From a virus, in IMG/VR virus record IMGVR_UViG_3300046460_000419, positions 1-37,278 of that record: 37,278 nt of DNA. The stretch is one strand, 5' to 3'. The notes under the pieces are model-generated. The model was not told the DNA's origin and did no database searches. It worked only from the letters and a program-made list of their open reading frames with translations. This document shows positions 5,022 to 33,680 of the stretch, in pieces. The position numbers were made by a program, and so were the translations under genes. Numbering within the stretch: position 1 is the first letter of the stretch; each line of letters starts with the position of its first letter.

Positions 5022-5447
5022 ATGGGGCGGGGGCATGGACAAGGCGAACGGGTTCACGCGCGGCAGGCGCGCCAGCGCCAGTTGCGGGCGCGTGGCGCGT
5101 GGTTGATCGCGGCCGACCTGGCGTCGGGCATGACGGGCGCCGACGTGCGCACGGCGCTGAAGACGCGCGGCACGGTCGGCCGGGGCGCGGACGCCATGAC
5201 CGCCAGGGCGCGCAAGATCGCGCTCTATCTGGCGGTGACGGTGGCCAACTGCAGGGCGGCCGAGGTCGCGGCGGCGATCGGCATGGACCCGGCGACGGTG
5301 CGCCAGCATGTCGGCTGGGTGGCCGAGCGCATGGACGATGACCTGACCCTGACGCGGGAGGTCAACGAGCTTGAGGCGAAGATGATCGAGACCGCGACCC
5401 TGTTGTCGATGGCCGCGCTGTGTCTCGAGATACCGGAGGCGGCATGA
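5022..5447 (+). CDS. DnaA domain IV-like DNA-binding protein
   Basis: A 141-residue protein with a very basic N-terminus (residues 1-30, many Arg and Gln) and a C-terminal domain at about residues 60-108. The pattern there is ARKIALYLAVTVANCRAAEVAAAIGMDPATVRQHVGWV, which resembles domain IV of DnaA: a basic helix, a helix-turn-helix with the -ATV- recognition start, and a following helix. DnaA domain IV binds TTATCCACA-like boxes. Free-standing versions occur in some phages and prophages, where they may recruit or interfere with host initiation. It lies directly upstream of replication and methylation genes and ends in an ATGA overlap. Repeated TTATCC-core sites elsewhere in this genome are possible targets (inference). 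It could instead be a generic HTH protein. Confidence 0.55.
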   Translation: MGRGHGQGERVHARQARQRQLRARGAWLIAADLASGMTGADVRTALKTRGTVGRGADAMTARARKIALYLAVTVANCRAAEVAAAIGMDPATVRQHVGWVAERMDDDLTLTREVNELEAKMIETATLLSMAALCLEIPEAA

Positions 5448-6286
5448 ACGCGCCCTGGAGACCGGCCCTGCGCTACATGGGCGGCAAGTGGCGGCTTGCG
5501 CCTTGGATCATCGATCTGATGCCGCCCCATCGGACCTATGTCGAGCCCTTCGGCGGCGCGGCCAGCGTCCTGCTGCGCAAATCGACTTCGTACGCTGAGA
5601 TCTACAACGACCTCGACGGCGAGGTGGTCAACCTGTTCCGCGTGCTGCGTGACCGCGACATGGCGCTCGAGCTGGTTCGGCAATTGGATCTCACGCCCTG
5701 GGCGCGCGATGAATTCGAGGCGACCTATGTGGTCGCGCCGGATCCAATCGAGAATGCGCGGCTGCTGGTGGCGCGCTCGTTCATGGGCTTTGGCTCCACG
5801 GCGACGGCGTTGCGGCGAAAGACCGGTTTTCGGGCTGACAGCAATCGAAGTGGCAAGCACCCGGCGCAGGACTGGACGGGCATGCCGCCGGCGCTGTTGG
5901 CGATCAGCGATCGCCTGAAGGGCGTAGTGATCGAAAACCGGCCGGCGTTGGACGTCATGGCGCGGTTCGACGGCGAAGACACCCTGATCTATGCCGACCC
6001 GCCCTATGTGCATTCGACCCGTTCGGGCAAGCGGATCCACGGCGGGCTGGAGCACGCCTACAAGCACGAGCTGACCGACGATGACCACCTCGAGCTCCTG
6101 ACCTGGCTGGCCGGGTGCAAGAGCATGGTGATGCTGTCGGGCTATCCGCACCCGCTCTATGAAGAAGCCCTGCCGGGCTGGCGTCGGGTGGATGTGGCCG
6201 CCCTGGCCGACGGAGCGCGCAAGCGCACGGAAAGCTTGTGGATCAACCCTGCGGCCCAGGCCGCCACGGTGGGGTTGTTCTCATGA
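5444..6286 (+). CDS. Dam-family (D12) adenine-N6 DNA methyltransferase
   Basis: A 280-residue alpha-type adenine methylase. Motif X is YMGGKWRLAPWI (residues 11-22), the SAM-binding motif I is YVEPFGGAASVLL (about 32-44), and the catalytic motif IV is DPPY at D185-Y188. The length matches the D12 class (Dam, DpnM type), which usually methylates GATC or a related site. No restriction enzyme partner is present, so it is a solitary methylase, probably protecting phage DNA or timing replication and packaging. The start at 5444 overlaps the previous stop (ATGA) and follows GGAGG four bases upstream. An in-frame GTG at 5420 is rejected. The stop again overlaps the next gene. Confidence 0.88.
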   Translation: MNAPWRPALRYMGGKWRLAPWIIDLMPPHRTYVEPFGGAASVLLRKSTSYAEIYNDLDGEVVNLFRVLRDRDMALELVRQLDLTPWARDEFEATYVVAPDPIENARLLVARSFMGFGSTATALRRKTGFRADSNRSGKHPAQDWTGMPPALLAISDRLKGVVIENRPALDVMARFDGEDTLIYADPPYVHSTRSGKRIHGGLEHAYKHELTDDDHLELLTWLAGCKSMVMLSGYPHPLYEEALPGWRRVDVAALADGARKRTESLWINPAAQAATVGLFS

Positions 6287-7389
6287 CCGCCCCCGCCCGC
6301 CGAGAACTGCCCCACGCCCCCGACCGCGTGCGCGCCGAGCTGCAGAGCCGCGTGCTGTCGCTGTTGCCAGCCCTGGGGATCAACGACCAGGCCCGCGCGG
6401 GGATCGTCACGCCGCTGAACCCGACGCGGGTCGACCGCAAGGCCGGGTCGTTCGTGATCTGGACGCAGGGCGACGCCATCGGGGCTTGGCAGGACTACGC
6501 CACGGGCGAGAAGGGCGATGTGTTCGACCTGATCGTCTATCTGGGCCGCCTGGCCCGGTGGATCGACGCCTATTGGTGGGCTTGCGAATTCCTGGGCTGG
6601 GGGCGGGGCGAGGTGCGCGCCGCCGGCAGCGGCCAGCTGGACCGCGAACGGATGGAGCGCGAGCGCAAGGCCGCTCTGGCGCGCCAGAAGGCCGACGACG
6701 CCCAGGTGGCGCGCAAGGCCAAGGGGTTCTGGCTGTCGGCCGCCGAGGACATCCGGGGCACGCTGGCCTGGACCTATCTGACCCAGGCGCGGGGCCTGCC
6801 GCTGGACAACCTCAAGCGCGTGCCCGGCGCTTTGCGGTTCGCGCCCCAGCTGGAGCACGTCGAGCGCGAGACGGGCGAGATCACCGAATGGCCGGCGCTG
6901 GTCTCGGCGATGAGCCATTGGGAAGGCGGCGACATCCGCGCCGTGCACCGTACCTATCTGGCGGCCGACGGCCTGGGCAAGGCCCCGGTGGCCACGGCCA
7001 AGAAGATGCTGGGCGGCGCCCGAGGCTGCGCCATCCGCGTGTGGAAGGGCGAGGGCGACCTGTCGCCGGAACAGGCGGCCAAGGCGGGCAAGACCGCGCC
7101 GCTGATCATCACCGAAGGCATTGAAGACGCCCTGACGGCCGCCATCGCGCGGCCGCAGGATCGCGTCTGGGCGGCGGGCTCGCTGAGCCTGCTGGGCACG
7201 CTGGGCTGGCCCGCTTGCGCCAGCGCCGTGGTGCTGGTCGCCGACAACGACTGGGAAAAGCCCCAGGCCATGGCCGCCTTCGAGAAGGTGCTGGGCCACT
7301 GGGAAAGCATGCGCGGCGGGCGACCCCTGAAGGTGGTGCGCGCCCAGGCCGGCAAGGATCTCAACGACTGGGCTAGGGGAGTGGAATGA
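6283..7389 (+). CDS. TOPRIM-domain primase-like protein
   Basis: A 368-residue protein. The N-terminal region (about 45-95) has the GSFVIWTQGDAIGAWQDYATGEKGDVFDLI pattern common in phage primase-like proteins just before the synthesis core; no clear zinc finger is visible. The C-terminal region (about 272-350) is a TOPRIM fold: LIITEGIEDAL with acidic E278, and VADND with D321 and D323, ending in GKDLNDWARG. TOPRIM proteins of this type make RNA primers or act with a helicase at phage forks. Here the SF3-like helicase at 9043 is the likely partner. The ATG at 6283 overlaps the methylase stop (ATGA), and its own stop overlaps the next ATG. Confidence 0.8.
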   Translation: MTAPARRELPHAPDRVRAELQSRVLSLLPALGINDQARAGIVTPLNPTRVDRKAGSFVIWTQGDAIGAWQDYATGEKGDVFDLIVYLGRLARWIDAYWWACEFLGWGRGEVRAAGSGQLDRERMERERKAALARQKADDAQVARKAKGFWLSAAEDIRGTLAWTYLTQARGLPLDNLKRVPGALRFAPQLEHVERETGEITEWPALVSAMSHWEGGDIRAVHRTYLAADGLGKAPVATAKKMLGGARGCAIRVWKGEGDLSPEQAAKAGKTAPLIITEGIEDALTAAIARPQDRVWAAGSLSLLGTLGWPACASAVVLVADNDWEKPQAMAAFEKVLGHWESMRGGRPLKVVRAQAGKDLNDWARGVE

Positions 7390-7838: not shown

Positions 7839-8092
7839 GCAAGGTCATCCACCTGACCAAGGTTCAGCGCCTGCAGGTCGAGGCGATCGAGGCCGAGCTG
7901 AAGCCCTGGGGCCTGCGCTCGCAGCTGGTCAACGAAGGCAAGCACATGTGCCTGAAGGTGTTCGGCCCCAAGGGCGGATGCTGGCGCATCACCTTCGCCG
8001 GCACGCCCCGCGACGAGGGCTCGGCGGTGAACATCAGCCGCCAGAAGGCCAAGCGCCTGATTAGGGACATCAACGCGAGGGCGGGGCTGTGA
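7835..8092 (+). CDS. Small basic hypothetical protein
   Basis: An 85-residue protein starting MSKVIHLTKVQRLQVEAI. The middle reads KHMCLKVFGPKGGCWRITFAGTPRDEGSAVNISRQKAKRLI, a beta-beta-beta-alpha pattern slightly reminiscent of dsRNA-binding or HicA-like folds, but without their signature residues. The ATG at 7835 overlaps the previous stop (ATGA), and the next gene starts on its stop (GTGA). Probably a nucleic-acid-binding accessory protein; uncertain. Confidence 0.55.
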   Translation: MSKVIHLTKVQRLQVEAIEAELKPWGLRSQLVNEGKHMCLKVFGPKGGCWRITFAGTPRDEGSAVNISRQKAKRLIRDINARAGL

Positions 8093-8760
8093 GAGTTCTC
8101 GTCGGCTGCGAGACCAGCGGAGTGGTCCGCCGGGCATTTGCTGCTCTAGGCCATGACGCATGGTCGTGCGACCTGCTCCCGGCCGAGGACGGTTCAAATC
8201 GTCACTTTGTGGGCGACCTTCGCGATTTCCTTAGCGGTGACTGGGATCTGCTCGCCGTGATGCATCCGCCGTGCACCCGCCTTTGCAAGAGCGGGGTTCG
8301 GTGGCTGCACGTGCCGCCACCGGGGCGGACCTTAGAGGAAATGTGGAGCGAGCTGGACGAGGGCGCCGCCTTCTTCTCAGCTTGCTGGAATGCTCCGATC
8401 GAGCGGATCTGCATCGAGAACCCCCAGATGCACCGGTACGCCAGGGAGCGCATCAGGAACTATCGCCGGCCCGCGCAGTACATCCAGCCTTGGTGGTTTG
8501 GCGCGCCCTTCTTCAAGGGCACGGGTCTTCATCTGAAGAACCTGCCGGTACTGATCCCGACCAACAAGCTTACCCCGCCCGCGCCGGGGACGCCTGAACA
8601 CCGGGCCTGGGCGATGATCCATCGCGCGCGTCCAGGACCGGATCGCTGGCGGGTGCGTAGTCGCACGTTTGATCCAGTCGCGGCTGCTTTTGCAGCGCAA
8701 TGGGGCGACCTAGACGGGATGACGCCGACACAGCGTGACCTGTTCGAGGGTTGCGCATGA
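8089..8760 (+). CDS. Cytosine methyltransferase-like Rossmann protein
   Basis: A 223-residue protein starting (GTG) MRVLVGCETSGVVRRAFAALGHDAWSCDL, a class I SAM-binding strand-loop like that of C5 cytosine methylases, followed by the acidic DLRDFL and a VMHPPCTRLCKSG segment that resembles the catalytic PPC motif. The protein is shorter than full C5 methylases and lacks an obvious target-recognition domain and motifs IX-X. It belongs to a phage family often labelled DNA methyltransferase without proof. By eye its G+C is lower than that of its neighbours, suggesting separate acquisition. GTGA and ATGA overlaps tie it into the early operon. Activity and target are unknown. Confidence 0.6.
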   Translation: MRVLVGCETSGVVRRAFAALGHDAWSCDLLPAEDGSNRHFVGDLRDFLSGDWDLLAVMHPPCTRLCKSGVRWLHVPPPGRTLEEMWSELDEGAAFFSACWNAPIERICIENPQMHRYARERIRNYRRPAQYIQPWWFGAPFFKGTGLHLKNLPVLIPTNKLTPPAPGTPEHRAWAMIHRARPGPDRWRVRSRTFDPVAAAFAAQWGDLDGMTPTQRDLFEGCA

Positions 8761-9053
8761 CCTGGACATCTCGCGCCACCCAACCGCCCCAAGGCAACAC
8801 GTTCGCGTTCGGCCATAACAGCTGGATCTGGGCGCAGTTCGATCTTCTGCCGCAGCTGGTCCGAGACGTCATCAACTACGCGCCCCTGCAGATGGGCACC
8901 GACCGCGCGACTAAGGCCCTGCAGGGCGGCGCGTCCGTCGATGTCGTGGCGCGCCAGGAGGTGCTGCTGGCCAAGCGCTTCATTGGCGAACTGACCCTCG
9001 ACACCTACGGCCCCGACCATCCTCAAGCGCCGAGATCCTATCGTGACGCGTAA
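8757..9053 (+). CDS. Hypothetical early protein upstream of helicase
   Basis: A 98-residue protein starting MTWTSRATQPPQGNTFAFGHNSWIWAQFDLLPQLVRDVINYAP. No domain is recognised. The C-terminal half has regular helices (VVARQEVLLAKRFIGEL). ATG at 8757 overlaps the methyltransferase stop (ATGA); a TTG two codons earlier is less likely. Its last 11 bases overlap the GTG of the helicase gene, implying coupled translation and perhaps a shared role in replication. Confidence 0.55.
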   Translation: MTWTSRATQPPQGNTFAFGHNSWIWAQFDLLPQLVRDVINYAPLQMGTDRATKALQGGASVDVVARQEVLLAKRFIGELTLDTYGPDHPQAPRSYRDA

Positions 9054-10956
9054 GACCCCCGACCCCTTCGACGAAATCGGCCTGGCCCTGGCGATCGAGG
9101 CCGAGGATCTGGAAGACCTGCGCGAGATCTCCAAGGCCGATCCGCAACAGGGCTTCGCGATGGACATTCGCGACGCCATGGGCCGCATCCTGGCGACCGA
9201 CATCGGGCCAGGCGCGTGGCTGGGCTACGAAGACCCGCTGACGGCCCTGCCGCCCATGTGCCCGGTGGTCCCACTGGGCAAGAACGAGGACGTCTATTTC
9301 TTCCTCAACACCCTGGGCGCGATCGAGGCCTTCAAGGCCAATTCCAGCGGCAAGGGGCCGATCGGGTCGATCTTCGCCGGCCGCTCGCGCTGGCTGGAAT
9401 GGGCTTGGCCCCGCTTTGGCAAGCCGACCAAGGGCGGCCCGGCGCCGGTGCAGGGCTGGGACGCCGACGACGCCCGCCAGGCCCTGCAGGATGCTTGCGC
9501 CTATATCGGCGTGTTCGACGACACCGACCGCGTGCGCGGCCGGGGAGCGTGGAAGGACCACAATGGCGGGCTGATCTATCACGCCGGTGACCGCGTGCTG
9601 TTCCGCGGCCGCTGGTTGCCGCCCGGCCGACATGGCGAGTGGGTGTTTCCCGCGCGGCCGCCGCTGCCCAGGCCCTGGCCTGACAAGGTGGCGGTCGAGG
9701 ACGGCTATGGCCCGGCGCGCGAGCTGCTGGAGGTGTTCGAAACCTGGAACTGGCGACGGCCCGAGATCGACGCCAAGCTGCTCTTGGGCTTCACGGCCAT
9801 GTCGATGCTGTCGGGCGCCTTGGCCTGGCGCTCGGCCTGCTACCTGACCGGCGAGCGCGGATCGGGCAAATCGACCCTGCAGGAGGTGCTGGGCGTCGTG
9901 CTGGGCCGCGCCCTGCACAAGAGCGTCAACACCAGCGGGCCGGGCATCTATCAGAAGCTGCGGCACGACTGCACGCCGGTGTGGGTGGACGAGCTGGAAG
10001 CCCAGTCCGAGAACAACATGCGCAAGGTGATCGAGATCATCGAGCTGATCCGCACCGCCAGTTCGGGCGGGTCGATCAACCGGGGCTCGTCCGAAGGGAT
10101 CGCGCGGGAGTATCAGTGCCGCAGCCCGTTCATCGCCTCGTCGATCAACATCCCGCCCATGCGCGGCCAGGACCAGAGCCGGTTCGCGGTGCTGCAGCTG
10201 CAGCCGTTCCCCGAGCTGCCCGAGGGCGAGGAGCCCAAGGATCTGTCGTTCGAGGAAAGCCAGCTGGGCAAGATCGGCCGCCAGCTGCTGCGACGGATGA
10301 TCGACGGCTGGCCGCGCTGGCCGGCGGTGCTGAAGGACTTCCGCCACGCCCTGATCCGCGCCGGTCATGACCCGCGCGGGGCCGACCAGTTCGGCGTGCT
10401 GCTGGCCGCCGGCCACATCGCCGCGTCGGACGATGCGCCCGACCAGGCCACGCTGGAGTTCTGGGCCAAGGCCCTGGCCCCCCAGAACCTGGCCGAGACC
10501 GCAAACAAGACGGAAGACTGGCGCGAGTGCCTACACCACATGCTCGACGTCGTGCCCGAGGCCCTGAAGCACCGCACGGGCGGCTCCAACAGCATCGGCG
10601 GCATCCTCGCGGCCTATCGCAAGGGTCACACCGAGCACATGACCGAGGATGTCGAGCGGGCGTGCGCCCAGGTCGGCCTGGCGATCAGCTGGCCCAGAGG
10701 CGAAACCCCGACCTGGGAGAGCGCGCGGCTGTTCGTCCCAGGGTCGCACCCCGAGGTGCGCAAGCTGTTCGCGGGCACGACATGGCAGGGGCTTTCTGGC
10801 GCCACCGGCGTCTGGGCCTCGACCCTGCAGCGCGCGCCGGCCGAGATCGCCGAGACGGGCAATTGCGGCAAGGGCTTGGACAAGAAGCGCTGGGGCGTCT
10901 TCATCCGCCTGGCCAAGGCCTATCCTGACGATGGCCCAGCCGAAGACGCGGTTTAG
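9043..10956 (+). CDS. SF3-like replicative helicase ATPase
   Basis: A 637-residue protein with a central ATPase core of superfamily 3/D5 style. Walker A is GERGSGKST (G270-T278, K276), Walker B is VWVDELE (D316, E317), and a motif C-like SSINIPP (N369) is followed by the RF...LQLQPF strand. The N-terminal 230 residues carry no recognised polymerase or primase motif, and the C-terminal 200 are probably helical and DNA-binding. SF3 helicases act as origin-binding ring helicases in phages such as P4 and in small eukaryotic viruses, so this is the likely initiator or fork helicase, partnered by the TOPRIM protein at 6283. The start is GTG at 9043, overlapping the previous gene by 11 bases. Last gene of the early right operon. 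Confidence 0.75.
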   Translation: MTRKTPDPFDEIGLALAIEAEDLEDLREISKADPQQGFAMDIRDAMGRILATDIGPGAWLGYEDPLTALPPMCPVVPLGKNEDVYFFLNTLGAIEAFKANSSGKGPIGSIFAGRSRWLEWAWPRFGKPTKGGPAPVQGWDADDARQALQDACAYIGVFDDTDRVRGRGAWKDHNGGLIYHAGDRVLFRGRWLPPGRHGEWVFPARPPLPRPWPDKVAVEDGYGPARELLEVFETWNWRRPEIDAKLLLGFTAMSMLSGALAWRSACYLTGERGSGKSTLQEVLGVVLGRALHKSVNTSGPGIYQKLRHDCTPVWVDELEAQSENNMRKVIEIIELIRTASSGGSINRGSSEGIAREYQCRSPFIASSINIPPMRGQDQSRFAVLQLQPFPELPEGEEPKDLSFEESQLGKIGRQLLRRMIDGWPRWPAVLKDFRHALIRAGHDPRGADQFGVLLAAGHIAASDDAPDQATLEFWAKALAPQNLAETANKTEDWRECLHHMLDVVPEALKHRTGGSNSIGGILAAYRKGHTEHMTEDVERACAQVGLAISWPRGETPTWESARLFVPGSHPEVRKLFAGTTWQGLSGATGVWASTLQRAPAEIAETGNCGKGLDKKRWGVFIRLAKAYPDDGPAEDAV

Positions 10957-11038
10957 GCGTAGAGCCATAGGCTAGGCTGGCCACAGCAGCGATAATCGGG
11001 CAAAACCTCCTCCGCGTGTATTGCGTCAGGGGGTTAGC

Positions 11039-12397
11039 TTGTCCGTTGTTCAATCCGTTCGCCAGCCCGCAGGCGTGAGCCGCGAAGCGCCAAAGTCTGA
11101 CGTCGTCCCTCTCCGCGCTGGTGACAAGCTCGCGCTGACCTTCGTCCTGGCGCCCGCCGTCATCGACTATCGGTTCGAGAACCCCAACGGGTTCACGCTC
11201 GGCTTTTATGGCCTCCTGACGGTCCTGGCGCTGTTTGGGTCTCTGTCGCTGGTGAAGTGCTACGGCCTCAAGGCCGGATCCTGGTCGAACAAGGTCGCGC
11301 TGGTCGCCTTCCTGTTCCTGCTGGAGACGTCCCTGGTGGGCATGATGCGAGGACAGACGTTCTTCGCCGTCTTCCGCGCCATGCCGCCTGTGCTGTTCTT
11401 CCCCCTGGGCTTGCTCGCGATCAGCGCCCTGCAGAACTCCGGGCAAGATTGCCGGGCGGTCTGGCGTCATGTCGTCAGGGCGTCGGTGATCGCTCTATTC
11501 GTTCAGCTGGCGATGGCGATCTTCGTGCGCGGGGTAGACCTAGCCACCGTCCGCTACCAGGTGCTTAGCGGCGCGGCTCCCCTACTCACGGGCTATGCGG
11601 TTTGGGCGCTGTTCTTCGGCGGCCTGAGCGCGGCCACCATGGGCGTGATCGTGCTGCACGTCAGCGTCATTCTGCTGTCGGTCACCCGGACCCAAGTCGC
11701 GATCGGCGCGGCGGCCGCCCTGGCGGCCGTGATTGGCTCCAAGGGGCAGGCGCTGAACCTTCGCCGCCTAGGCCCCGCGCTCCTGGGCACGATGGTGCTG
11801 CTGCTCGGGATCGTCGGCGTGGGATCGGTCTTGCCCGGCGCGCCGCTAGAACGATGGGCCTATCGCCTGTTCGAGGTGCAGGGCGCGCACCATGGGCTGG
11901 ACATCACCGCCGTGACGCGTGAGGGCGAGGCGCGCTACCAGATGTCGCAGATTTCGAGTTCGACCAGTGGCGCGCTGTTCGGCTTCGGGCTCGCCGCTCC
12001 GACGAAGTTTGACTCTGCCGCTCAGCAGCTCGTCTACTTGATCCTTGGTCGCAAGTATGCCGACTGGAACGAAAGCGGGATCGGGCACAACAACTATGTC
12101 GGCACCGTCTTCGTCGGCGGCCTCTTGTTCGGCGGCGCCCTGATCTTCATGCAAGCCGTGGCGCTGTGGCAGGCCTTGGTGGGGATCGGCCGGATGGTTC
12201 GCCCCACGCTCATGCCGCGCTTTGGGGTCCTGATAGCCGCGCCGCTGGCCTATATCTCGTACCTGGCCTTCGGGATGCTAGGCGGGACACTGGCGGTGCG
12301 GTCGATGTCGATGTTCATGGGGATCACTTTGGCGCTCGCGTGCTGGGTCTATGACGCCAGCAAGCCGGCACAGGCCCCGCAGCGCCCCGGCCACTGA
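11039..12397 (+). CDS. Wzy-like O-antigen polymerase (lysogenic conversion candidate)
   Basis: A roughly 452-residue polytopic membrane protein with about ten or more hydrophobic helices and a large loop at about residues 270-345 containing GHNNYVGTVFVGG, the arrangement typical of Wzy polymerases and O-antigen ligases. These inner-membrane proteins join polysaccharide repeat units in the periplasm. When carried by phages they alter surface glycan linkage and so block adsorption by related phages. The start is uncertain: TTG at 11039 has GGGGG about six bases upstream, with an in-frame TTG at 11021 and a GTG further in as alternatives. It lies 82 bases after the helicase gene, outside the coupled operon. 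GATAAT at 10991-10996 could be a -10, but no good -35 is seen. It resembles a moron gene expressed in the lysogen (inference). Confidence 0.75.
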   Translation: MSVVQSVRQPAGVSREAPKSDVVPLRAGDKLALTFVLAPAVIDYRFENPNGFTLGFYGLLTVLALFGSLSLVKCYGLKAGSWSNKVALVAFLFLLETSLVGMMRGQTFFAVFRAMPPVLFFPLGLLAISALQNSGQDCRAVWRHVVRASVIALFVQLAMAIFVRGVDLATVRYQVLSGAAPLLTGYAVWALFFGGLSAATMGVIVLHVSVILLSVTRTQVAIGAAAALAAVIGSKGQALNLRRLGPALLGTMVLLLGIVGVGSVLPGAPLERWAYRLFEVQGAHHGLDITAVTREGEARYQMSQISSSTSGALFGFGLAAPTKFDSAAQQLVYLILGRKYADWNESGIGHNNYVGTVFVGGLLFGGALIFMQAVALWQALVGIGRMVRPTLMPRFGVLIAAPLAYISYLAFGMLGGTLAVRSMSMFMGITLALACWVYDASKPAQAPQRPGH

Positions 12398-12512
12398 TCC
12401 ACTCACGATAAGCGGCCAGCTCGTCGCGCTCTTGCGCGGCGGGCGGTGCGGCCGCGTGTCCAGCTTGGCGACGAGGTGAGGGCGCGCTGCAGCGCGCTCC
12501 GCTTTCCTTCAC
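12324..12512 (-). CDS. Possible small protein antisense to wzy-like 3' end
   Basis: A 62-residue reading frame starting at GTG 12512, which overlaps the stop of the zinc-ribbon gene as GTGA, the same coupling used throughout this phage. The sequence MKESGARCSAPSPRR is followed by the protein-like segment ERDELAAYREWISGRG. It has no ribosome site of its own. Its last 74 bases lie opposite the end of the polymerase gene, so the two transcripts would overlap tail to tail. It could be spurious; the coupled start and plausible helix are the only support. Confidence 0.35.
   Translation of the reverse strand: MKESGARCSAPSPRRQAGHAAAPPAAQERDELAAYREWISGRGAAGPVPACWRHRPSTRAPK
12482..12497. repeat. 16-bp perfect palindrome between convergent genes
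   Basis: GCGCGC-TGCA-GCGCGC is perfectly self-complementary and lies between the end of the polymerase gene (plus) and the zinc-ribbon gene (minus), inside the possible small minus-strand frame. On the plus strand it is followed by CTCCGCTTTCCTTC, so it may act as a weak terminator of the polymerase transcript. Confidence 0.4.
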
Positions 12513-12853
12513 TGGAGCGGGCGTGAGCCCGCGACATGACAAGCGCGGCCCGCGCCTCGCGCGGGTCGCACCGCCTTTTCTTCCTCGGTGACGCGGTGGC
12601 ACAGGCCTTGGGCGGTCGGGGTCCAGCATTCCAGCTGCCGCCGGTGATAGCCGTCGCGATAGACCGAAACCCCGACCCCAGGATGGCCGCAGGACGGGCA
12701 AACGAACCAGCCTGACCTGGCCAGCTCCTCGACCGTGAACGCCCGCATGGCGGGGCACTGGGCGCGGGCAGGGGTCATGTGGCCGGCGCGGCAAGCGCCG
12801 CAGCCGACATAGAGGCTCAAATCGTGGTCCTGACAGTGGCCGAGGGTGCGCAT
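12509..12853 (-). CDS. Small cysteine-rich (zinc-ribbon-like) protein
   Basis: A 114-residue protein with two CxxC knuckles, CGAC at about residues 18-21 and CPSC at about 52-55, plus further Cys near 7, 33 and 76, consistent with one or two zinc ribbons. Between them lies an ordinary helix (MRAFTVEELARSGWF), and the C-terminal tail is basic. It is the only leftward gene in the right half of the genome, alone or with the small frame after it, between the surface-polymerase gene and the repeat array. Such proteins usually bind DNA or RNA polymerase. The ATG at 12853 has no clear ribosome site. Confidence 0.55.
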   Translation of the reverse strand: MRTLGHCQDHDLSLYVGCGACRAGHMTPARAQCPAMRAFTVEELARSGWFVCPSCGHPGVGVSVYRDGYHRRQLECWTPTAQGLCHRVTEEEKAVRPARGAGRACHVAGSRPLQ

Positions 12854-12991
12854 GGGCGGCTGTTCTACGCTCGCAGCGCGCGGCCGTCACGCCCGCACCC
12901 GGACCCCGCGACGCTTCCTTATCCCGTCCCGGACCCTCGCCCTTACAACCAGCATGAGGCCAAGGGACGTCTTGAGCAGGGTCTGGGGACC

Positions 12992-13233
12992 TTCCAGACA
13001 TTCCACGCGGCCTTCCACCCTAAAGCGAGTGACTTCAACGACTTGACGCCCTTGGAAGGCGTGGAAGGCGTGGAATGTCGTTTCGGCCCTATCACGTGAG
13101 AAAGGGGGATCTGATCACGTGAAAAGCACGCGCTATGGGAACAGGTACATTCCACACCTTCCAGACATTCCAAGATATCCATCCCTCGGAAAACACAGCG
13201 AAAATGATGGAATAAGCGGTGGAAGCCGTGGAA
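12992..13233. repeat. Dyad-symmetric array of twelve TTCCA/TGGAA pentamers
   Basis: Four clusters of three. TTCCA begins at 12992, 13001, 13013 and again at 13150, 13159, 13168. TGGAA begins at 13053, 13062, 13071 and again at 13208, 13220, 13229. Spacings are 9 and 12; 9 and 9; 9 and 9; 12 and 9. All twelve copies map onto each other under a two-fold axis at 13112/13113, because mirrored coordinates always sum to 26225. Both cluster-to-cluster gaps are 35 bases and the central gap is 74. The extended unit is close to a 9-mer, (G/C)RCMTTCCA. Placement 24 bases before the small terminase gene suggests a packaging site; the iteron style also fits an origin bound by the SF3-like helicase. Confidence 0.85.
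13091..13123. promoter_or_regulatory. Paired ATCACGTGA sites
   Basis: ATCACGTGA occurs at 13091-13099 and 13115-13123, 24 bases apart. The inner TCACGTGA is a perfect 8-base palindrome. Both lie in the central 74-base gap of the pentamer array, though not symmetric about its axis. They look like binding sites for a dimeric regulator or architectural protein, possibly acting on the late promoter for 13257. Confidence 0.5.
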
Positions 13234-13256: not shown

Positions 13257-13940
13257 ATGACCGGGGGAGCCGACCTCTTGGGCGCGCCGATCGAGGCCCC
13301 TCGCAAGCGGGGGCGCCCGAAGGGCTCGGGCAACCGACGGGCCAAGGATCTGAAGGGGATCATCGACGCCAGGTATGGCGGATCGGCGGCCCAGCAGTCG
13401 GCTCAGATGTGCATGGTCACCCCGGCCGAGCTGAAGGCGGCCGGCGGATCGATGGCCAAGGCCCAGGTGAACAAGGCGCTCGACCTGGTCAAGCACGTCC
13501 GCGAGGCCCAGGACCGGCGCGACGAGGCCCTTCGGGCGCTGGTGCGCGAAGAGCTGCACGCGATGGCCGAGGTGCTGGACGACGAGGACCGCGACGGCAT
13601 GAAGCTCCGCGCCCAGGTCAGCCTGTTCATCAAGAGGGTGCGCGAGGCGTCGTCGTCGTTCGGGCTGCGCGAGGCGCTCGACCTGATCACGAAAGAGCGG
13701 GCGAACCTTCTGCCGTACACCGACATGCGCCAGCCGCTGGCGGTGGACGTGACCAGCAAGGGCCACGCGCCCAGCGTCGTCATCATGGGCAGCGGAGGCG
13801 AGGGCGGCATGGCGACCATGCCCACTGAAAACGTTGGGGTTTTTGATGGCGCGTTCGAGGTGGTCTCACGCCCGGTGTCTCACGATGCGCCGCAAACCCT
13901 TGCTCTCCCTGGGCTAGAGGGCCTTGCGCCCGGTGATTGA
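13257..13940 (+). CDS. Probable terminase small subunit
   Basis: A 227-residue protein immediately upstream of the large terminase gene. The N-terminus is strongly basic with an AT-hook-like RKRGRPKGSGNRR (about residues 16-28), suited to DNA recognition. The centre (about 65-140) is a run of charged helices (ALRALVREELHAMAEVLDDEDRDGMKLRAQVSLFIKRV) that could oligomerise. The C-terminal 60 residues are Gly/Pro-rich and probably contact TerL. ATG at 13257 follows AGGGG about seven bases upstream. By position and architecture it should recognise the packaging site, and the pentamer array ends only 24 bases before its start. The family could not be confirmed from sequence alone. Confidence 0.65.
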   Translation: MTGGADLLGAPIEAPRKRGRPKGSGNRRAKDLKGIIDARYGGSAAQQSAQMCMVTPAELKAAGGSMAKAQVNKALDLVKHVREAQDRRDEALRALVREELHAMAEVLDDEDRDGMKLRAQVSLFIKRVREASSSFGLREALDLITKERANLLPYTDMRQPLAVDVTSKGHAPSVVIMGSGGEGGMATMPTENVGVFDGAFEVVSRPVSHDAPQTLALPGLEGLAPGD

Positions 13941-14086: not shown

Positions 14087-14136
14087 AGCCCCAAACTCAC
14101 TGACGCGACAAAGGGTCGGGGTTGGGGAGAGAGCGC

Positions 14137-15639
14137 ATGTCGGATGATGTCTGGGCGCAGCGCGACTATTCGAAATACGCCGGTCCTGTCGCGAGGGCCT
14201 ATGGCCACTCTCAGGCAGACGTCGCCGTCATCGTTGGTCCAACAGGTGGGGGGAAATCGACGGAAAGCGCCCGTCGTGTCCTCCGCGCCGCGCAATGGCA
14301 GCACCGTAGCCCACGCGACGGTTTGCGCAAGTGCCGCGTGGCGGTGATCGCGCCGACCTATCGGCGGCTCTGGGACCAGGTGATCCCCAGCTACAAGAAG
14401 GAAATCAACCCGGCCTGGGGGCTGGAGCCCGGCAAGTCGGGCTTCACCGGATCGAAGGGCGACCCCGCCGACCACGTGTTCATGGCCCGCTGTCCCGACG
14501 GCACCCTGGCCAGGATCGAGGTCTTGTTTCGCGCCGTCGGCGACGCGGACCTCGAAGACTTCTTCCGGGGCTTCGAGGTGACCGCCTACTGGCTCCCTGA
14601 AATGGACACCCACGCCAGCGGCGACATCCTGTCCTTCGCCGCCAATCGGGTGGGGCGCTATCCCGAGCCGGAAGACAGGCCCGAGAACCCGCCGCATCCG
14701 TCCTACGCGGGTGTGTGGGGCGACGCCAACGCCCCGGAAATCGACGACTGGTTCTACAACCGCTTCTGGCTTCCCGGCGGGCGGATGGAAGGCGATCAGG
14801 TGTTCATCCAGCCGTCGGGCTTCTCGCCCCAGGCCGAGAACATGCAGAACCTGCGCAAGATCAGGACCGACTATTACGAGCACAAGAAACGCTCACACGA
14901 GAGCTGGGCGGTGCGACGGTTCCTAGAGAACCGGCCGGGCTACAGCCGCCACGGCCTGCCGGTCCACGATCACTTCGACATCCACCGGATGGTGACGGAA
15001 CACTCGTTTGCGGCGATCGAGGGCTTCCCGCTGGTGATCGGCGCCGACTGCGGCAACACCCTGTCGCCCGCGGCGACCTTCATGCAGCGGCTTATGCGCC
15101 AGATCCGCTGCATGGCCGAGGTCATGACCCCGACGCAGATGGACCTGGTCGAGTTCGCGCACGAGATCAAGACCATCCGCGAGACCAAGTTCGGGCACAT
15201 CAGCGACGCGTTCATCGTCGCCGATCCGTCGGCGATCACACAGTCGGTACTGAGCCGGGGCACGTCCCTGGCGGCCATCCTGCAGGCGGAAAGCGGGATC
15301 GAGGTCGTGCTGGCCCCGTCGAACGATCCGCTGGCGCGCCGATCGGCCACCGACCAGGTCATGAAGCGCAACGCCCTGCCGGGTGAGCCGGGGTTCATCG
15401 TCAGCGGCCCGGACTGCCCCAACCTGATCAAGGCCCTGGCCGGCGGCTATCACTTCGAAAAGAAGGGAGCCAAGACCTCGACCACCCCCAAGAAGGTCCA
15501 CCCGTGGTGCGATATCGCCGAAAGCGCCCAGTACGGCGTGCTGGGATTGGAGGGCCTGGGCGGCGCGGTGGGGGCGGTTATCCACGAGACCTCGGGCCAG
15601 CGCGATGATGGCGATCACAGAGCCATCCTGCAGGACTAG
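14137..15639 (+). CDS. terL: Terminase large subunit (packaging ATPase and nuclease)
   Basis: A 500-residue packaging motor. The ATPase half has Walker A GPTGGGKST (G34-T42), the VAVIAPTYRRLWDQVIPS segment typical of TerL proteins, and a Walker B-like VTAYWLPEM with E155. The C-terminal RNase H-like nuclease half shows VIGADCGN (D304) and AFIVADPSA (D363), the usual metal-binding acidic residues. It cuts concatemeric DNA and pumps it through the portal at 16977. ATG at 14137 is preceded by GGGGAGAGAG; a TTG at 14122 is not needed. The gap upstream holds a terminator and a 22-bp repeat, so terL may have its own promoter. Confidence 0.92.
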   Translation: MSDDVWAQRDYSKYAGPVARAYGHSQADVAVIVGPTGGGKSTESARRVLRAAQWQHRSPRDGLRKCRVAVIAPTYRRLWDQVIPSYKKEINPAWGLEPGKSGFTGSKGDPADHVFMARCPDGTLARIEVLFRAVGDADLEDFFRGFEVTAYWLPEMDTHASGDILSFAANRVGRYPEPEDRPENPPHPSYAGVWGDANAPEIDDWFYNRFWLPGGRMEGDQVFIQPSGFSPQAENMQNLRKIRTDYYEHKKRSHESWAVRRFLENRPGYSRHGLPVHDHFDIHRMVTEHSFAAIEGFPLVIGADCGNTLSPAATFMQRLMRQIRCMAEVMTPTQMDLVEFAHEIKTIRETKFGHISDAFIVADPSAITQSVLSRGTSLAAILQAESGIEVVLAPSNDPLARRSATDQVMKRNALPGEPGFIVSGPDCPNLIKALAGGYHFEKKGAKTSTTPKKVHPWCDIAESAQYGVLGLEGLGGAVGAVIHETSGQRDDGDHRAILQD

Positions 15640-25848: not shown

Positions 25849-28410
25849 ATGGCGAGACTTCCCACCGTCCTCGACCAAGGCTCGACGCGCGGCGCGACGC
25901 CGTCGACCAACGTCGCCCGTCCGGTCACCGGCGCGCTGCAGGATCTCGCCCAAGGGATCAGCACGGTCGGCAAGGCCCTTGAGGTCGTCGACGACAAGCA
26001 GGCCAAGAAGATCCTGCTGGCCGAGCAGGCGACGTTCGAGCCGACCCTGGCCGAGAGCGCCGCGCGCTATGACGGCCGCCAGAGCGGGTTCGCAGCCCAG
26101 GCCACGGAGGCGTTCGACCAGCACTTCAAGGGGGTGATGGAGCGCGAGGACATCCCCGGCGGGGTGCGCCTGGCCTTGCGACGTCAGGTGGACGCCTACA
26201 AGGCCGACGTCGGCGGGCGCGCGATCGGCATCGAGAGCGAGAAGCGCGCGGGCGTCATCGCCGGCCAGGAACAGGTCAAGCAAGCCCAGGCCGTCGGCGC
26301 CGGGTTCGCGGTGTTCCAGAAGAACTATGGCGAGGCGTATCAGTCGCTGTACGACAACTACGACGGCAGCGAACGCAACCTGGTCACCGGCGCGGAGCGG
26401 ACTTTCGAGGCCGCCCGCCAGGCCGCCCTGGAAGCTACGCCCGAGGCTCAGCGCCCCGCGCTCGAAATCCGGCTCGCCGCCCAGCGCCCGCAGATCCTGG
26501 CCCAGGCCATGGAGGCCCAGGATCAGGGCCACACCGCCTATGTGGCCTCGAAGGTCAAGGAAACCGGCGAAGCGACGCTGAACAGCGTGCTGACCAACCC
26601 GGCGGGCTACGCCATGGCGGCGGGCAATGCCGAGGATCTGGCGGCCGGTTTGCCCGCCCGCCTGCGCAAGCCCTTCCTGGATGAGTATCAAGGCCGCCTG
26701 GCCAGCGCCCGCGTCGAGGGCTTGATGTTCCGGGGCGACCTGAACGGGGCCAAGGCCGAGCTGGACAGCGGCAAGTACGACAAGATCCTGCCGCCCCAGC
26801 GCAAGGAAGCGTTGATCGGCGAGGTACAGGCCAGGTCCGCGAAACAGGCCTCGGACATGCTCGAGGCTTTTCGCTATGGCGGCGACGTCGATCCGGGCGC
26901 GCTGCGCGCCGCCGTGGCGGCCAGTGGCGACGCCGGGCTGAAGGCCCACGCCGAATACGCCATCGCCGTCGGCGCGGGCGAGGCTGGGGCCTTGGAGAGC
27001 TTGGCCGGCGGCAAGAAGAGCGCCGGTTTCCAGTCGGCCGTGAATTTCGTCATCGACAAGAACGAGGGCGGCGACGCCCTGGTCGTTGACGACAATGGGC
27101 GCGGGCCGTCGCGCTTCGGGATCAATCAGGGCGCCAACCCCGATCTGAATGTCACCACGCTGACGCGCGGCCAGGCTGTCGGCCGGTACCGTCGCTACTG
27201 GAATTCGATCGGCGGCGAACGTCTGCCCGACGCGCTGGCGCTGGTGGCCTTCGACGCCGCCGTCAACCAGGGCGAGGGTACGGCCAAACAGATGCTGGCC
27301 CAGAGCGGCGGCGATGTCGGCCAGCTGCTAGCCCTGCGCGAAGCGGCGTATCGCGACCTGGCCAAGGAACCGGGCCAGGCCAAGAACCTGAAGGGTTGGC
27401 TGGCGCGTCTGGACAAGGTGCGCGGTGAGGCGGCGCGCCTGCAGGCGTTCGCCAATGTCGAGGACGGGCTGTCCAGCGATCCGATCAAGTTCGCGCTGGG
27501 CGGCCCCACGCGGTCGGCCCTGGCGGCCGTCCCGCCCTTGCCTGATCAGATCGAGGGCGCGGGCTTCGCCACCGCCTTGCGCGGTCGCCTGCAGGTCGGT
27601 CAGACCATGAACCGCACCTATCGCGCGCCGCTGCGACTGCTGACCAATGCCGAGGCGACCTTCTACGGCGACATGATCGCCCGCGACCCCGTCAAGGCGG
27701 TGGACTTCGCCGAGACGTCCCTGGCGGCCGTGGGGCCTCAGGCAACGCGCGGCCTGCTGTCGGAGATCGGCCAGAAGGGCGATGTGGGCACCACGCTGCA
27801 CCTGGCCCAGCTGGCGGCTTCCGGTCTCGACACCTTCGCGCGCCAGGCCGCCAAGGGGCTGGCCTTGAAGGGGGGCGGCCAGAAGCTGGAAAAGCCACAA
27901 GCCGATGAGATCACCGCCGAGGTCAAGCGGGTCGAAACCGTCTTCCATGGCCAGCCTGAATTGCGCGCCGCCGTGGCCCAGACCGCCGAGGGCGCCATGC
28001 TGGCCGACCGTCTGAGCGGCGTGGAGAAGACGGCGGAAGCCTATGTCAATTCGGCGCTGGGCGCGACGGCGCGGGGCGGCCGGCGCTTCGGCGGCGTGGT
28101 GGACCTGAACCACGGCAAGACCGTCATTCCGCCGTGGCTGGACGCCGGCTATGCCGATGACGCGCTGGAGATCATGGCGCGCTACTGGGACAGCACCGGC
28201 ACGGGGCCGGTCTATACGAACGGCAAGCCCATCCCGGCGCGGGCGATGAGCCAGCTGCAGCTGCAGCTGACGCCCTCGGGTCGTTACCGCATGCTAGACC
28301 GCCAGGGCGCGGCGATGGTCGATAAGCGCGGCAAGGTCTTCGACTTCGACTGGGACGACGCCAAGAGCGGACTGCGCGCCCAGCTGGGCGGCAAGGTGGT
28401 GGTCCAATGA
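25849..28410 (+). CDS. Internal virion protein with GH108 muramidase domain
   Basis: An 853-residue, largely helical protein that should be ejected with the DNA. Residues about 1-390 are long coiled-coil-like helices. Residues about 395-525 match the glycoside hydrolase 108 fold: NFVIDKNEGGDALVVDDNGRGPSRFGIN with catalytic Glu E406, then LTRGQAVGRYRRYWNSIGGERLPDALALVAFDAAVNQGEGTAKQ. GH108 enzymes cut the muramic acid-glucosamine bond of peptidoglycan. The remainder is again helical with a terminal beta segment (YRMLDRQGAAMVD). T7 keeps its wall hydrolase in Gp16; here it lies in a different internal protein, so the local wall opening at infection is probably done by this gene product. It starts two bases after the Gp14-like stop. 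Confidence 0.82.
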   Translation: MARLPTVLDQGSTRGATPSTNVARPVTGALQDLAQGISTVGKALEVVDDKQAKKILLAEQATFEPTLAESAARYDGRQSGFAAQATEAFDQHFKGVMEREDIPGGVRLALRRQVDAYKADVGGRAIGIESEKRAGVIAGQEQVKQAQAVGAGFAVFQKNYGEAYQSLYDNYDGSERNLVTGAERTFEAARQAALEATPEAQRPALEIRLAAQRPQILAQAMEAQDQGHTAYVASKVKETGEATLNSVLTNPAGYAMAAGNAEDLAAGLPARLRKPFLDEYQGRLASARVEGLMFRGDLNGAKAELDSGKYDKILPPQRKEALIGEVQARSAKQASDMLEAFRYGGDVDPGALRAAVAASGDAGLKAHAEYAIAVGAGEAGALESLAGGKKSAGFQSAVNFVIDKNEGGDALVVDDNGRGPSRFGINQGANPDLNVTTLTRGQAVGRYRRYWNSIGGERLPDALALVAFDAAVNQGEGTAKQMLAQSGGDVGQLLALREAAYRDLAKEPGQAKNLKGWLARLDKVRGEAARLQAFANVEDGLSSDPIKFALGGPTRSALAAVPPLPDQIEGAGFATALRGRLQVGQTMNRTYRAPLRLLTNAEATFYGDMIARDPVKAVDFAETSLAAVGPQATRGLLSEIGQKGDVGTTLHLAQLAASGLDTFARQAAKGLALKGGGQKLEKPQADEITAEVKRVETVFHGQPELRAAVAQTAEGAMLADRLSGVEKTAEAYVNSALGATARGGRRFGGVVDLNHGKTVIPPWLDAGYADDALEIMARYWDSTGTGPVYTNGKPIPARAMSQLQLQLTPSGRYRMLDRQGAAMVDKRGKVFDFDWDDAKSGLRAQLGGKVVVQ

Positions 28411-31005: not shown

Positions 31006-33680
31006 CCAAGTTCCTCGGCTGCATCGAAGAGGCCATCACGGGCGGCGAGGTCGATAAGGATCTCGCGGCCGAACTGCGCGAGGCCTATGGCGACGCCTTT
31101 CAGTCGGCGTCCGAAGCGCTCGGCCCGGCCGAGGCCGACCGCATGGCCGGCAAGGCCGTCGTCGCGGCGCTGGACCGCGCCGTCCTGCGCGAAACCCGCC
31201 TGCGCGCCATGTCGGTTCGCACGCGCCGCGCGGCGCTGGAGAACCTGGCGGCGTTCAAGAAGAGCCGGGGCTATACCGGCGTCCAGACGCTGGGCGGCGG
31301 CAAAGGCAAGGGCCCGCCCAAGGATGGCTGGGTGCAGGGCGGCGCGCCGCCCCCCAAAGGCCCCTACGCCAACGGCAAGGCAGCGGCCGATTACCTGATC
31401 GAGCTGGTCGACGGCCAGGGCGGCCTGGCGGGCGCGCCCGGCGCCAGTGTCAAGGGCCGCTATCAGGCGGTGCGCGGCCAGTTCGACGCCATGATGGCCG
31501 ACCTCATCGAGAAGTTCGAGACGCGGACGGGCTTCGATACGCCCGGCAACGCCTCGTTGGAAAACATCGTTCGCGAGGCGTTCGGCGAGGACAGCGGTGA
31601 CCAGGCCGCCAAGGCCATGGCCCAGGCGTTCGACGGCACGGCCGAGCATGCGCGCCGCCTGTTCAACGCGGCCGGCGGCGAGATCGGCAAGCTGGACCGG
31701 TGGGGCTTGCCCCAGACCCACGATCCCATGGCGGTGCGCCGCGCCGGCCGCGACAACTGGGTCGAGGCGATCGCGCCGCGTCTGGACCGCGCGCGGATGA
31801 TCGACCGCGTCACCGAAATGCCGTTCACCGACAAGCGCCTGAAGGCGGTGTTGGGCGACGTCTGGGACACCATCGTCACCGGCGGACTGGACGCCCACGC
31901 GCCCGGCGAGCGCCTGGGCAAGGGCAAGCTGGCCAACCAGCGGCAGGAACACCGGTTCCTGATGTTCAAGTCGGCCGACGACTGGATGGCCTATCAGGGC
32001 CAGTTCGGCACGGCCGACCCGTTCGCGGCGATGATCAACCACCTGGACGGCATGGCCCGCGACATCGCCCGCCTGCAGGTGCTGGGTCCCAACCCCGATA
32101 ACCAATTCGCCTGGCTGTCGGCGTTCGCCGAGCGCGAGGGCGTGCTGGAAGCCCGCGACGGCGCGAACAAGGCCGACGCCAACGCCCGCCACGCCGTGGC
32201 CACGGCCCAGACAATGTATCGCACCTTCACCGGCGAGACCGCGACGCCCTATGGCCGCAACGTCGTGGCCGCCGTCGCGGGCGGCGCGGTGCGCAGCTAT
32301 CTGACAGCCGCGCAGCTGGGGTCCGCGATCATCCTGGACGTGACCAGCAACCCGATCTTCGCCGCCCAGACGCGGGCCTTCACCGGCCTGTCCAAGCTGG
32401 GCGATTTCCAGGCCTGGCAGGGCCACGTGTTCTCGAAAGACGTCCGCGCCACGGCGGCGCGATCGGGGTTCATCGTCGAGACCGCCCGCGCCCAGCTGCA
32501 GTCGTCCAGCCAGGACGTGCTGCGCATGCACACGGCCGGCGGCAAGGCCCTAGCGGGGATCAACGCCTTCACGCGCCGCCTGCCCGTCGCCGTCATGCGC
32601 GCCCAGGGCCTGGCCGGCAATATGGCCGCCACCCGGTGGGCCTTCCAGCATGAGTTCATGGGCGCGCTGTTCGACCGGCGCGGAAAGACCCTGGCCCAGC
32701 TGCTGAAGGGCGACGCCGAGGACGTTGAGTTTGGCCAGGTGCTGAAGGCGCGGGGGTTCAGCGAGGTCGACTGGGCCAAGATCCGCTCCACCGACCCCGA
32801 GACGCCCGCCGACGGCGTGTCGTTCCTGTCGCCCACGAAGGTCGGCGCGGCGCATGGCGACGAACTGGGCTGGCGGCTTTCGGAAATGATCGAGCGCCAG
32901 ACGCGCCTGGCCGTGCCCGAGGCGTCGCTTTGGGCGCGCGCGCACCTGATCGGCGACACGCGGCCGGGCACGGTGCAAGGCGAGATCCGCCGCAGCCTGG
33001 CGGCCTATCGCTCATTCACCGTGACCCAGACCTTCCTGTGGGGGCGCGAGTTCACGGCGCGGGCCATGGACAAGCCGAACTGGGGCCTGGCGGCGGCCGG
33101 CGGGGTCGCGCCGCTGGTGATCAGCCTGACCTTGGGCGCCGCCCTGGGCATCGGTCTGCGCGACATCGTCAAGGGCAATGATCCGCGGCCGATGGATGAC
33201 GGCAAGTTCTGGAGCGCCGCGCTACTGCAGGGCGGCGGCCTGGGGATCATGGGCGATTTCTTCTACGCGGCCCAGGCGCGCAACGGCAAAAGCTCGGCCC
33301 TGACCAGCATGGGGGCGGGCGCGGCGCTGATCTCGGACGCCTGGGACCTGACCGGCGGCAATGTCGGCCAAATCGCGGACGCCATGGGCGAGGGCGACAG
33401 CTTCGGCGACGCCCTGGACAAGGCCAAGCCCGGCCGCGACGCCGCCAAGTTCGCGGCGCGATACTCGCCAATCTCGTCGCTGTGGTGGGCGCGGGCGGCC
33501 TATGACCGCATGGTGGTCGACCAGCTGCAGAAGCTGCTGGACCCCGAGGCCGAGGAGGATTTCGCGCGCCAGAGCCGCCGCATGGAGCGCGACATGGGCC
33601 AGGGCCAGTGGTGGCCCGAGGGCGACGCTCTGCCCGAGCGCGCCCCGAACGTGGCCACGGCGGCCGGCGCGCAACCCTAG
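31002..33680 (+). CDS. Large internal virion / DNA-ejection protein
   Basis: An 892-residue protein, the largest ejection candidate, in the T7 Gp16 position before the tail fibre. It is mostly long helices, with hydrophobic, potentially membrane-spanning stretches near residues 685-725 (GLAAAGGVAPLVISLTLGAALGIGL) and about 745-760. I see no transglycosylase motif; the wall-cleaving domain sits in the 25849 gene instead. It probably extends with its partners into a periplasmic channel for genome entry. The start is GTG at 31002, overlapping the previous stop (GTGA). The stop is followed by a gap with a repeat and a hairpin before the fibre gene. Confidence 0.75.
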   Translation: MTKFLGCIEEAITGGEVDKDLAAELREAYGDAFQSASEALGPAEADRMAGKAVVAALDRAVLRETRLRAMSVRTRRAALENLAAFKKSRGYTGVQTLGGGKGKGPPKDGWVQGGAPPPKGPYANGKAAADYLIELVDGQGGLAGAPGASVKGRYQAVRGQFDAMMADLIEKFETRTGFDTPGNASLENIVREAFGEDSGDQAAKAMAQAFDGTAEHARRLFNAAGGEIGKLDRWGLPQTHDPMAVRRAGRDNWVEAIAPRLDRARMIDRVTEMPFTDKRLKAVLGDVWDTIVTGGLDAHAPGERLGKGKLANQRQEHRFLMFKSADDWMAYQGQFGTADPFAAMINHLDGMARDIARLQVLGPNPDNQFAWLSAFAEREGVLEARDGANKADANARHAVATAQTMYRTFTGETATPYGRNVVAAVAGGAVRSYLTAAQLGSAIILDVTSNPIFAAQTRAFTGLSKLGDFQAWQGHVFSKDVRATAARSGFIVETARAQLQSSSQDVLRMHTAGGKALAGINAFTRRLPVAVMRAQGLAGNMAATRWAFQHEFMGALFDRRGKTLAQLLKGDAEDVEFGQVLKARGFSEVDWAKIRSTDPETPADGVSFLSPTKVGAAHGDELGWRLSEMIERQTRLAVPEASLWARAHLIGDTRPGTVQGEIRRSLAAYRSFTVTQTFLWGREFTARAMDKPNWGLAAAGGVAPLVISLTLGAALGIGLRDIVKGNDPRPMDDGKFWSAALLQGGGLGIMGDFFYAAQARNGKSSALTSMGAGAALISDAWDLTGGNVGQIADAMGEGDSFGDALDKAKPGRDAAKFAARYSPISSLWWARAAYDRMVVDQLQKLLDPEAEEDFARQSRRMERDMGQGQWWPEGDALPERAPNVATAAGAQP

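Follow-up and report, generated by a model that had tools for sequence, protein, structure and literature searches.

A twelve-site dyad array beside the terminase genes of a phage-like genome is a probable replication origin read by the phage helicase

An array of twelve pentamers, 242 bases long, lies between the helicase and terminase genes of an IMG/VR virus record of 37,278 bases, called the window here. This array is probably a replication origin (we put the probability at roughly 80%), whose iterons would be bound by the phage's own self-loading AAA+ helicase, most likely via the C-terminal domain of that protein. The original prediction had set two possible readers side by side, a helicase acting at an origin and TerS acting at a packaging site, and the former is well supported by the way in which the array follows the helicase gene, by the AT-rich gaps within it and by the helicase fold.

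Self-loading hexameric helicases such as SaPI Rep, P4 alpha, the D5-type enzymes and SV40 T antigen must load two facing rings on duplex DNA, and how origins dictate this is still being worked out in the field. With ∼93 nonredundant members that share a recurrent geometry while their word varies freely, the arrays described here are a natural system for studying helicase loading, one in which the roles of site count, spacing, orientation and specificity can be tested directly. Origins could also be located computationally from this design in similar phages, and the evidence from the arrays argues against annotating such arrays as packaging sites.

The array in the window and its symmetry

No DNA similarity to phage records was found for the window, which, to judge from its predicted genes, appears to be a short-tailed phage or prophage whose packaging and head genes are of the BPP-1/BcepC6B type. 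The closest cellular relative found is a Phenylobacterium sp. (L093), which makes a Caulobacterales-like host plausible. The gene order is Toprim primase, helicase, membrane protein, array, presumed TerS and TerL, and the genes on which the argument turns are as follows:

6238–7389, + strand: separate Toprim primase (DUF7146 and Toprim_3), likely the partner of the helicase
9043–10956, + strand: self-loading-type AAA+ helicase (phrog_21086/35358), the proposed reader of the array
13257–13940, + strand: presumed TerS, from position and synteny; no family model matched
14122–15639, + strand: TerL of the BPP-1/BcepC6B type (phrog_2; match to the BcepC6B TerL)

The protein encoded between the helicase and the array (11021–12397, + strand) is a multi-pass membrane protein of 458 aa with no family match; by eye it resembles an O-antigen polymerase, and its gene is possibly one for lysogenic conversion. 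In the early region, the primase gene lies between two DNA methyltransferase genes (5420–6286 and 8089–8760, + strand), and a DHH-family phosphoesterase (989–2488, − strand; phrog_4771, DHHA1) is encoded on the strand opposite to the phage modules.

All positions were confirmed for the twelve copies of TTCCA or TGGAA that had been reported at 12992–13233 as four alternating clusters of three. The array divides into the following parts, in which each copy is given by its start:

12992–13017, + strand: left outer cluster, TTCCA at 12992, 13001 and 13013 (spacing 9, 12); design kept in relatives
13018–13052: left inter-cluster gap, 35 bases; family mean GC ∼18 points under genome
13053–13075, − strand: left inner cluster, TGGAA at 13053, 13062 and 13071 (spacing 9, 9)
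13076–13149: central core, 74 bases, around the dyad axis 13112/13113, with two CACGTG palindromes
13150–13172, + strand: right inner cluster, TTCCA at 13150, 13159 and 13168 (spacing 9, 9)
13173–13207: right inter-cluster gap, AT-rich (GC ∼42% vs 68% for the window); candidate unwinding element
13208–13233, − strand: right outer cluster, TGGAA at 13208, 13220 and 13229 (spacing 12, 9)

This is the single TTCCA array in the window, with no second cis element of the kind that P4 has in ori1 and crr. The next gene, the presumed TerS, begins 24 bases past its end. That the array touches TerS while lying 2.0 kb from the helicase gene counts against an origin, and the distance arises because genes are inserted between the two. 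The palindromes in the core lie at 13093–13098 and 13116–13121; CACGTG is present in 10 of the 93 nonredundant arrays described below, and CACGCGTG in 4 of them.

Under an order-3 Markov model, 0.45 pentamers are expected in 242 bases, as against the 12 observed (Poisson P ∼9e-14), and the density of the array retains a P of ∼7e-9 once corrected for windows and for the 512 5-mers. The exact mirror symmetry that had been described about 13112/13113, including the 12-base steps in the outer clusters, was borne out as well: the start of one copy and the end of its partner sum to 26225 in six of six mirror pairs, and the dyad about 13112.5 is therefore exact at base level. When spacings were shuffled, all 12 copies came out exactly mirrored in 0.16% of cases; simulations that retained the alternating design of four clusters of three with natural spacings gave 0.07%.

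The exactness in the window is nevertheless partly luck, and it is the architecture, not the exactness, that is conserved among relatives. The two nearest relatives have helicases with 74% (L006) and 73% (L093) identity to that of the window. In L006, one side has an irregular step of 11, TAGAA stands in for the pentamer at one site, and the axes of the outer and inner pairs differ by 1 base; in L093, 10 of the 12 sites are mirrored. The sequence between the pentamers had been called not conserved, a description that holds in part: the whole 242 bases, pentamers included, are 51% self-complementary (124/242), but close relatives retain some of the stretches between pentamers (CCCTATCACGTGAGA in L006 is one), and an AT-rich gap is common to the whole family.

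A family of arrays that follows the helicase

With an alignment of the helicase as query, we recovered 80 viral and 45 prophage loci (125 distinct, L006 and L007 being one contig). Arrays were called with a de novo detector that is blind to motif and looks within ∼300 bases for any short word that recurs on both strands, its same-strand copies being 7–13 apart; matches to low-complexity GC-rich 5-mers and to coding tandem repeats were thrown out. A single array of this kind was called in 107 of the 125 helicase-encoding loci, and named phages have arrays too. Certain prophages are represented by both an IMG/VR and a genome locus, and 93 of 116 arrays are nonredundant.

Twelve sites is the modal count among these (47/93), in clusters that alternate in orientation. 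The spacing between same-strand neighbours peaks at 8–9 in inner clusters and at 11–12 in outer clusters, while gaps between opposite strands peak at 40–45 and 51–57 bases. The mirrored fraction averages 0.70, vs 0.41 when spacings and strands are shuffled, with p ≤ 0.01 in 49 of the 93 arrays, and all copies are mirrored within 2 bases in L046 and L069 (CTAAC), L039 (GGAAC) and phage phi1422 (GGTAAC). The word itself varies by lineage, as GTTCC, GTTAC, GTTAG, GTCCC and others, and the geometry stays. A literature search, conducted mostly without subscription papers, found no description of this phage array.

No array was called in 18 of the 125 loci. Arrays of such design are absent from L021, L070, L126, L129 and L131–L137; in L047, L060, L068 and L072 they occur only below the detector threshold, and in L018, L029 and L033 the sequence ends within 1.9 kb of the helicase. 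The lack of an array beside distant helicase homologues of the Methylobacterium group counts against the origin reading. Distant homologues are encoded in L131–L137 (Methylobacterium and others), where L133 has only GTCCTG pairs ∼100 bases apart.

Base composition within the arrays is uneven. The right gap, on the far side from the helicase gene, has GC below that of the genome in 85 of 85 arrays (mean deficit 28 points), and the left, near-side gap does so in 76 of 78, by a mean of 18 points, while the core is on average only 5 points below its genome. Because the core is also intergenic, the gaps are not explained by general intergenic AT-richness. The core of arrays from high-GC phages is barely AT-rich, which counts against an origin; the cores of phi1422, PY223, KLER1-1 and MQ-4 carry TTATTATTATA-like or TATATATA-like stretches. 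GC skew makes no turn at the window array; it tracks gene direction and is uninformative.

The original prediction's other reading was a two-fold symmetric pac or cos site, read by TerS to initiate packaging. In the window, L006 and L093 the presumed TerS gene directly adjoins the array, and over ∼70 loci the distance from array to TerL is fairly steady (∼0.7–1.75 kb) while that from array to helicase ranges from 59 to 4116 bases. Genes inserted across relatives lie mostly on the helicase side of the array, which again counts against an origin. In PY223 and ZRG1 the arrays are closer to TerS than to the helicase, but the terminases there are GpA. Since BPP-type phages have the array between the helicase and TerS, their synteny cannot decide which of the two is the reader. 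Loci with other arrangements tell against packaging. In L071, a helicase and array of the window's type occur with a lambda-type GpA terminase; in MinM1 the array starts at the end of the helicase gene, before an unrelated terminase; and in the Bdellovibrio phage phi1422 a fully mirrored array of 12 copies lies 11 bases after the helicase gp23, with TerS 7.2 kb away. The expectation of spaced clusters upstream of TerS homologues thus agrees with the steady distance to TerL, but such clusters also occur far from TerS and with unrelated terminases, provided that the helicase is present.

Arrays lie downstream of the helicase gene family-wide, at 27 bases in L130 and likewise downstream in MQ-4, the exceptions being Acjo_20 (just upstream) and L017. 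In the converse comparison, nine phages with this TerL type and no match to this helicase were scanned within 3.5 kb of TerL, and eight of them had no array there. The divergence of the motif correlates with helicase distance at a Spearman coefficient of ∼0.33 and with TerL distance at ∼0.23, a slight and indecisive difference between two weak correlations. Used as single-protein scan queries, TerS and TerL found no relatives, and the TerL alignment was too diverse to serve as one. Taken together, these loci associate the array with the helicase and not with the terminase, and the AT-rich gaps of the array suit melting, not packaging; a packaging site is quite unlikely on this evidence.

Three loci have peculiarities of their own. 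The ninth phage, VA-RY-3 (Vibrio; L139 1363–1647), which has no match to the window helicase, carries 12 AGGAT/ATCCT copies without dyad symmetry upstream of its BPP-type terminase. In L017, where the helicase gene has the unusual position of adjoining the gene for the major capsid protein, a fully mirrored CGTTC array (903–1194) lies ∼3.6 kb upstream of the helicase gene. In L006, a 3.3-kb insert (9900–13025) that includes a RadC/JAB gene separates the helicase from the array.

Two further explanations invoke other DNA-binding proteins. The array might be an operator through which a phage regulator controls the late operon from TerS on; it does lie where the early genes give way to the late ones, and in BcepC6B a small annotated repressor gene stands between array and TerS. 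A conserved 12-site dyad of ∼250 bases with AT-rich gaps and a helicase-linked distribution would, however, be unusual for an operator, the array is away from the terminase operon in Acjo_20 and phi1422, and a non-systematic look noticed no conserved regulator alongside it, all of which makes this account very improbable. We give hardly any credence to a parS-like partition centromere bound by ParB or a ribbon-helix-helix protein. Annotated ParB-like genes are present in PY223, ZRG1 and phi1422, but the array has no recognisable par gene beside it in the window, in L006, in L071 or in most loci examined; partition is not needed by integrated prophages, and the dyad and its AT-rich gaps track the helicase.

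The helicase and a route to origin opening

The AlphaFold2 model of the helicase (60 homologues) has a pLDDT of 91.9, and its top Foldseek matches in the PDB are ASFV PrimPol, SaPI5 PriRep (E 1.5e-8), NrS-1 and D5/E5. A second structural comparison placed SCCmec Cch first (Z 15.6, rmsd 6.5, 427 residues spanning 62–630), tied within 1 Z with many MCM chains, whose match covers the AAA+ core only. By the fold of the model, the helicase belongs with the Rep/PriRep-like AAA+ helicases (SaPI5 PriRep, D5, Cch); the earlier label of 'SF3-like' was roughly right, as the nearest folds to the model are SaPI5 PriRep, D5, ASFV PrimPol, SCCmec Cch and MCM AAA+. Family matches at the sequence level are weak (DUF927 in 2/60 and DUF5906 in 5/60 helicase members), and profile comparisons with P4 alpha, the BcepC6B primase and solved structures linked the Walker A region or nothing convincing; with P4 alpha, hhalign aligned the Walker A stretch only, at a probability of 12%.

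The C-terminal domain, at about residues 500–637, is the candidate DNA-binding part. It is modelled with a pLDDT of 86 and has weak winged-helix-like neighbours (best Z 3.1), and searched alone it gave no confident fold match. The array could also be an origin whose pentamers are read by another initiator, of phage or host, that recruits the helicase: this would accord with the lack of a confident DNA-binding fold match for the C-terminal domain and with a motif divergence that shows no preference for that domain. Such an intermediary is unlikely, as no other conserved gene was seen with the array in the loci examined, and SaPI Rep, Cch2 and P4 alpha all bind their iterons themselves (PMC7581432; PMC4234260).

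If the helicase is itself the reader, it would bind the pentamers directly, most likely by its C-terminal domain. In the simplest mechanism, the six sites of each dyad half (three outer and three inner) would seat one hexamer, so that two oppositely oriented hexamers, six subunits and six, would form across the core, in the manner proposed for the origins of SaPI and SV40. Opening of the duplex would probably begin in the AT-rich gap of the right half, and the separate Toprim primase (6238–7389) would prime afterwards.

A more specific form of this proposal is possible, although we hold it at somewhat less than even odds: the dyad may be a 12-site code for loading the double hexamer, in which the six iterons of each half place six subunits and the spacings of 8–9, 11–12 and ∼43 bases set the geometry of assembly. 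On this view, that geometry would have persisted through dozens of changes of iteron sequence, and the fork that opens first would be set by the AT-rich right gap. If this were true, tailed phages would contain a large natural library of helicase–origin pairs.

Comparison with known origins

Smaller arrays of related layout occur in BPP-1, BcepC6B and Acinetobacter 4316, as inverted pairs with a spacing of 9 that stand 71–81 bases apart:

26610–26707 of BPP-1 (L087): minimal array
32341–32435 of Acinetobacter 4316 (L091): minimal array
across the record start of BcepC6B (L005): minimal array

These are like the window array in lying between a D5-type primase-helicase gene and TerS and in having an AT-rich core, but they have 2+2 main sites only, and their helicase, as shown for BcepC6B, is of the D5_N/AEP type and not of the window's family. 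The minimal pairs are candidate origins, unannotated in these three model phages.

The closest parallels in anatomy come from satellite elements. In PICIs, the origin immediately follows the 3′ end of the initiator (rep) gene, and its two sets of iterons flank an AT-rich stretch (PMC6092414). The iterons of SaPI origins are recognised by the C-terminal domain of Rep, which appears to bind as two hexamers (PMC7581432), and SaPI origins have been likened to that of SV40 for the head-to-head loading of hexamers (PMC9894130). The arrays described here share with SaPI/PICI origins short, oppositely oriented iteron sets that lie mostly 3′ of the initiator helicase gene, an AT-rich candidate melting stretch between sets, a helicase of the same fold group and the proposed two hexamers (PMC9894130). 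They differ in having four clusters of three in a dyad where SaPI/PICI have two iteron sets, and in an AT-rich stretch that is mainly between the right-half clusters, whereas it is central in SaPI/PICI. They also sit in tailed-phage genomes, mostly of Alphaproteobacteria, with a primase that is often a separate or fused Toprim protein. In SCCmec, Cch is the highest-Z whole-chain fold match to the helicase and Cch2 binds direct repeats downstream of its gene, but only three iterons are reported for Cch2 and replication has not been demonstrated in vivo.

P4 offers a likeness in spacing. Its 8-base repeats form oppositely oriented groups spaced 9–11 with one 43-base step; crr lies directly downstream of alpha with a repeat spacing of 9, ori1 has spacings of 10, 11 and 43, and one relative of the window, L042, is alone in using GTTCACC, the core of the P4 repeat TGTTCACC. 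In contrast to the TTCCA of the window, however, the type-1 repeats of P4 are TGTTCACC, its sites are split over two elements ∼5 kb apart with no such dyad, and the sequence link between the helicase and alpha is the weak one given above.

At the SV40 origin, dyad pentamers are read by a viral AAA+ helicase, the large T antigen, and there are four of them, bound through an N-terminal origin-binding domain. The window array is like it in its dyad pentamers and unlike it in pentamer number and in the domain proposed to read them. The large T antigen forms a double hexamer (PMC9894130).

By anatomy, then, the window array resembles the origins of SaPI/PICI, P4 and SV40, and this kind of origin is already known. 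The statement that no phage site of this exact design was known is a fair one, but the design is common and belongs with the SaPI/PICI and P4 origins; what appears to be a new design is the near-perfect dyad of four clusters and 12 sites, widespread in tailed phages.
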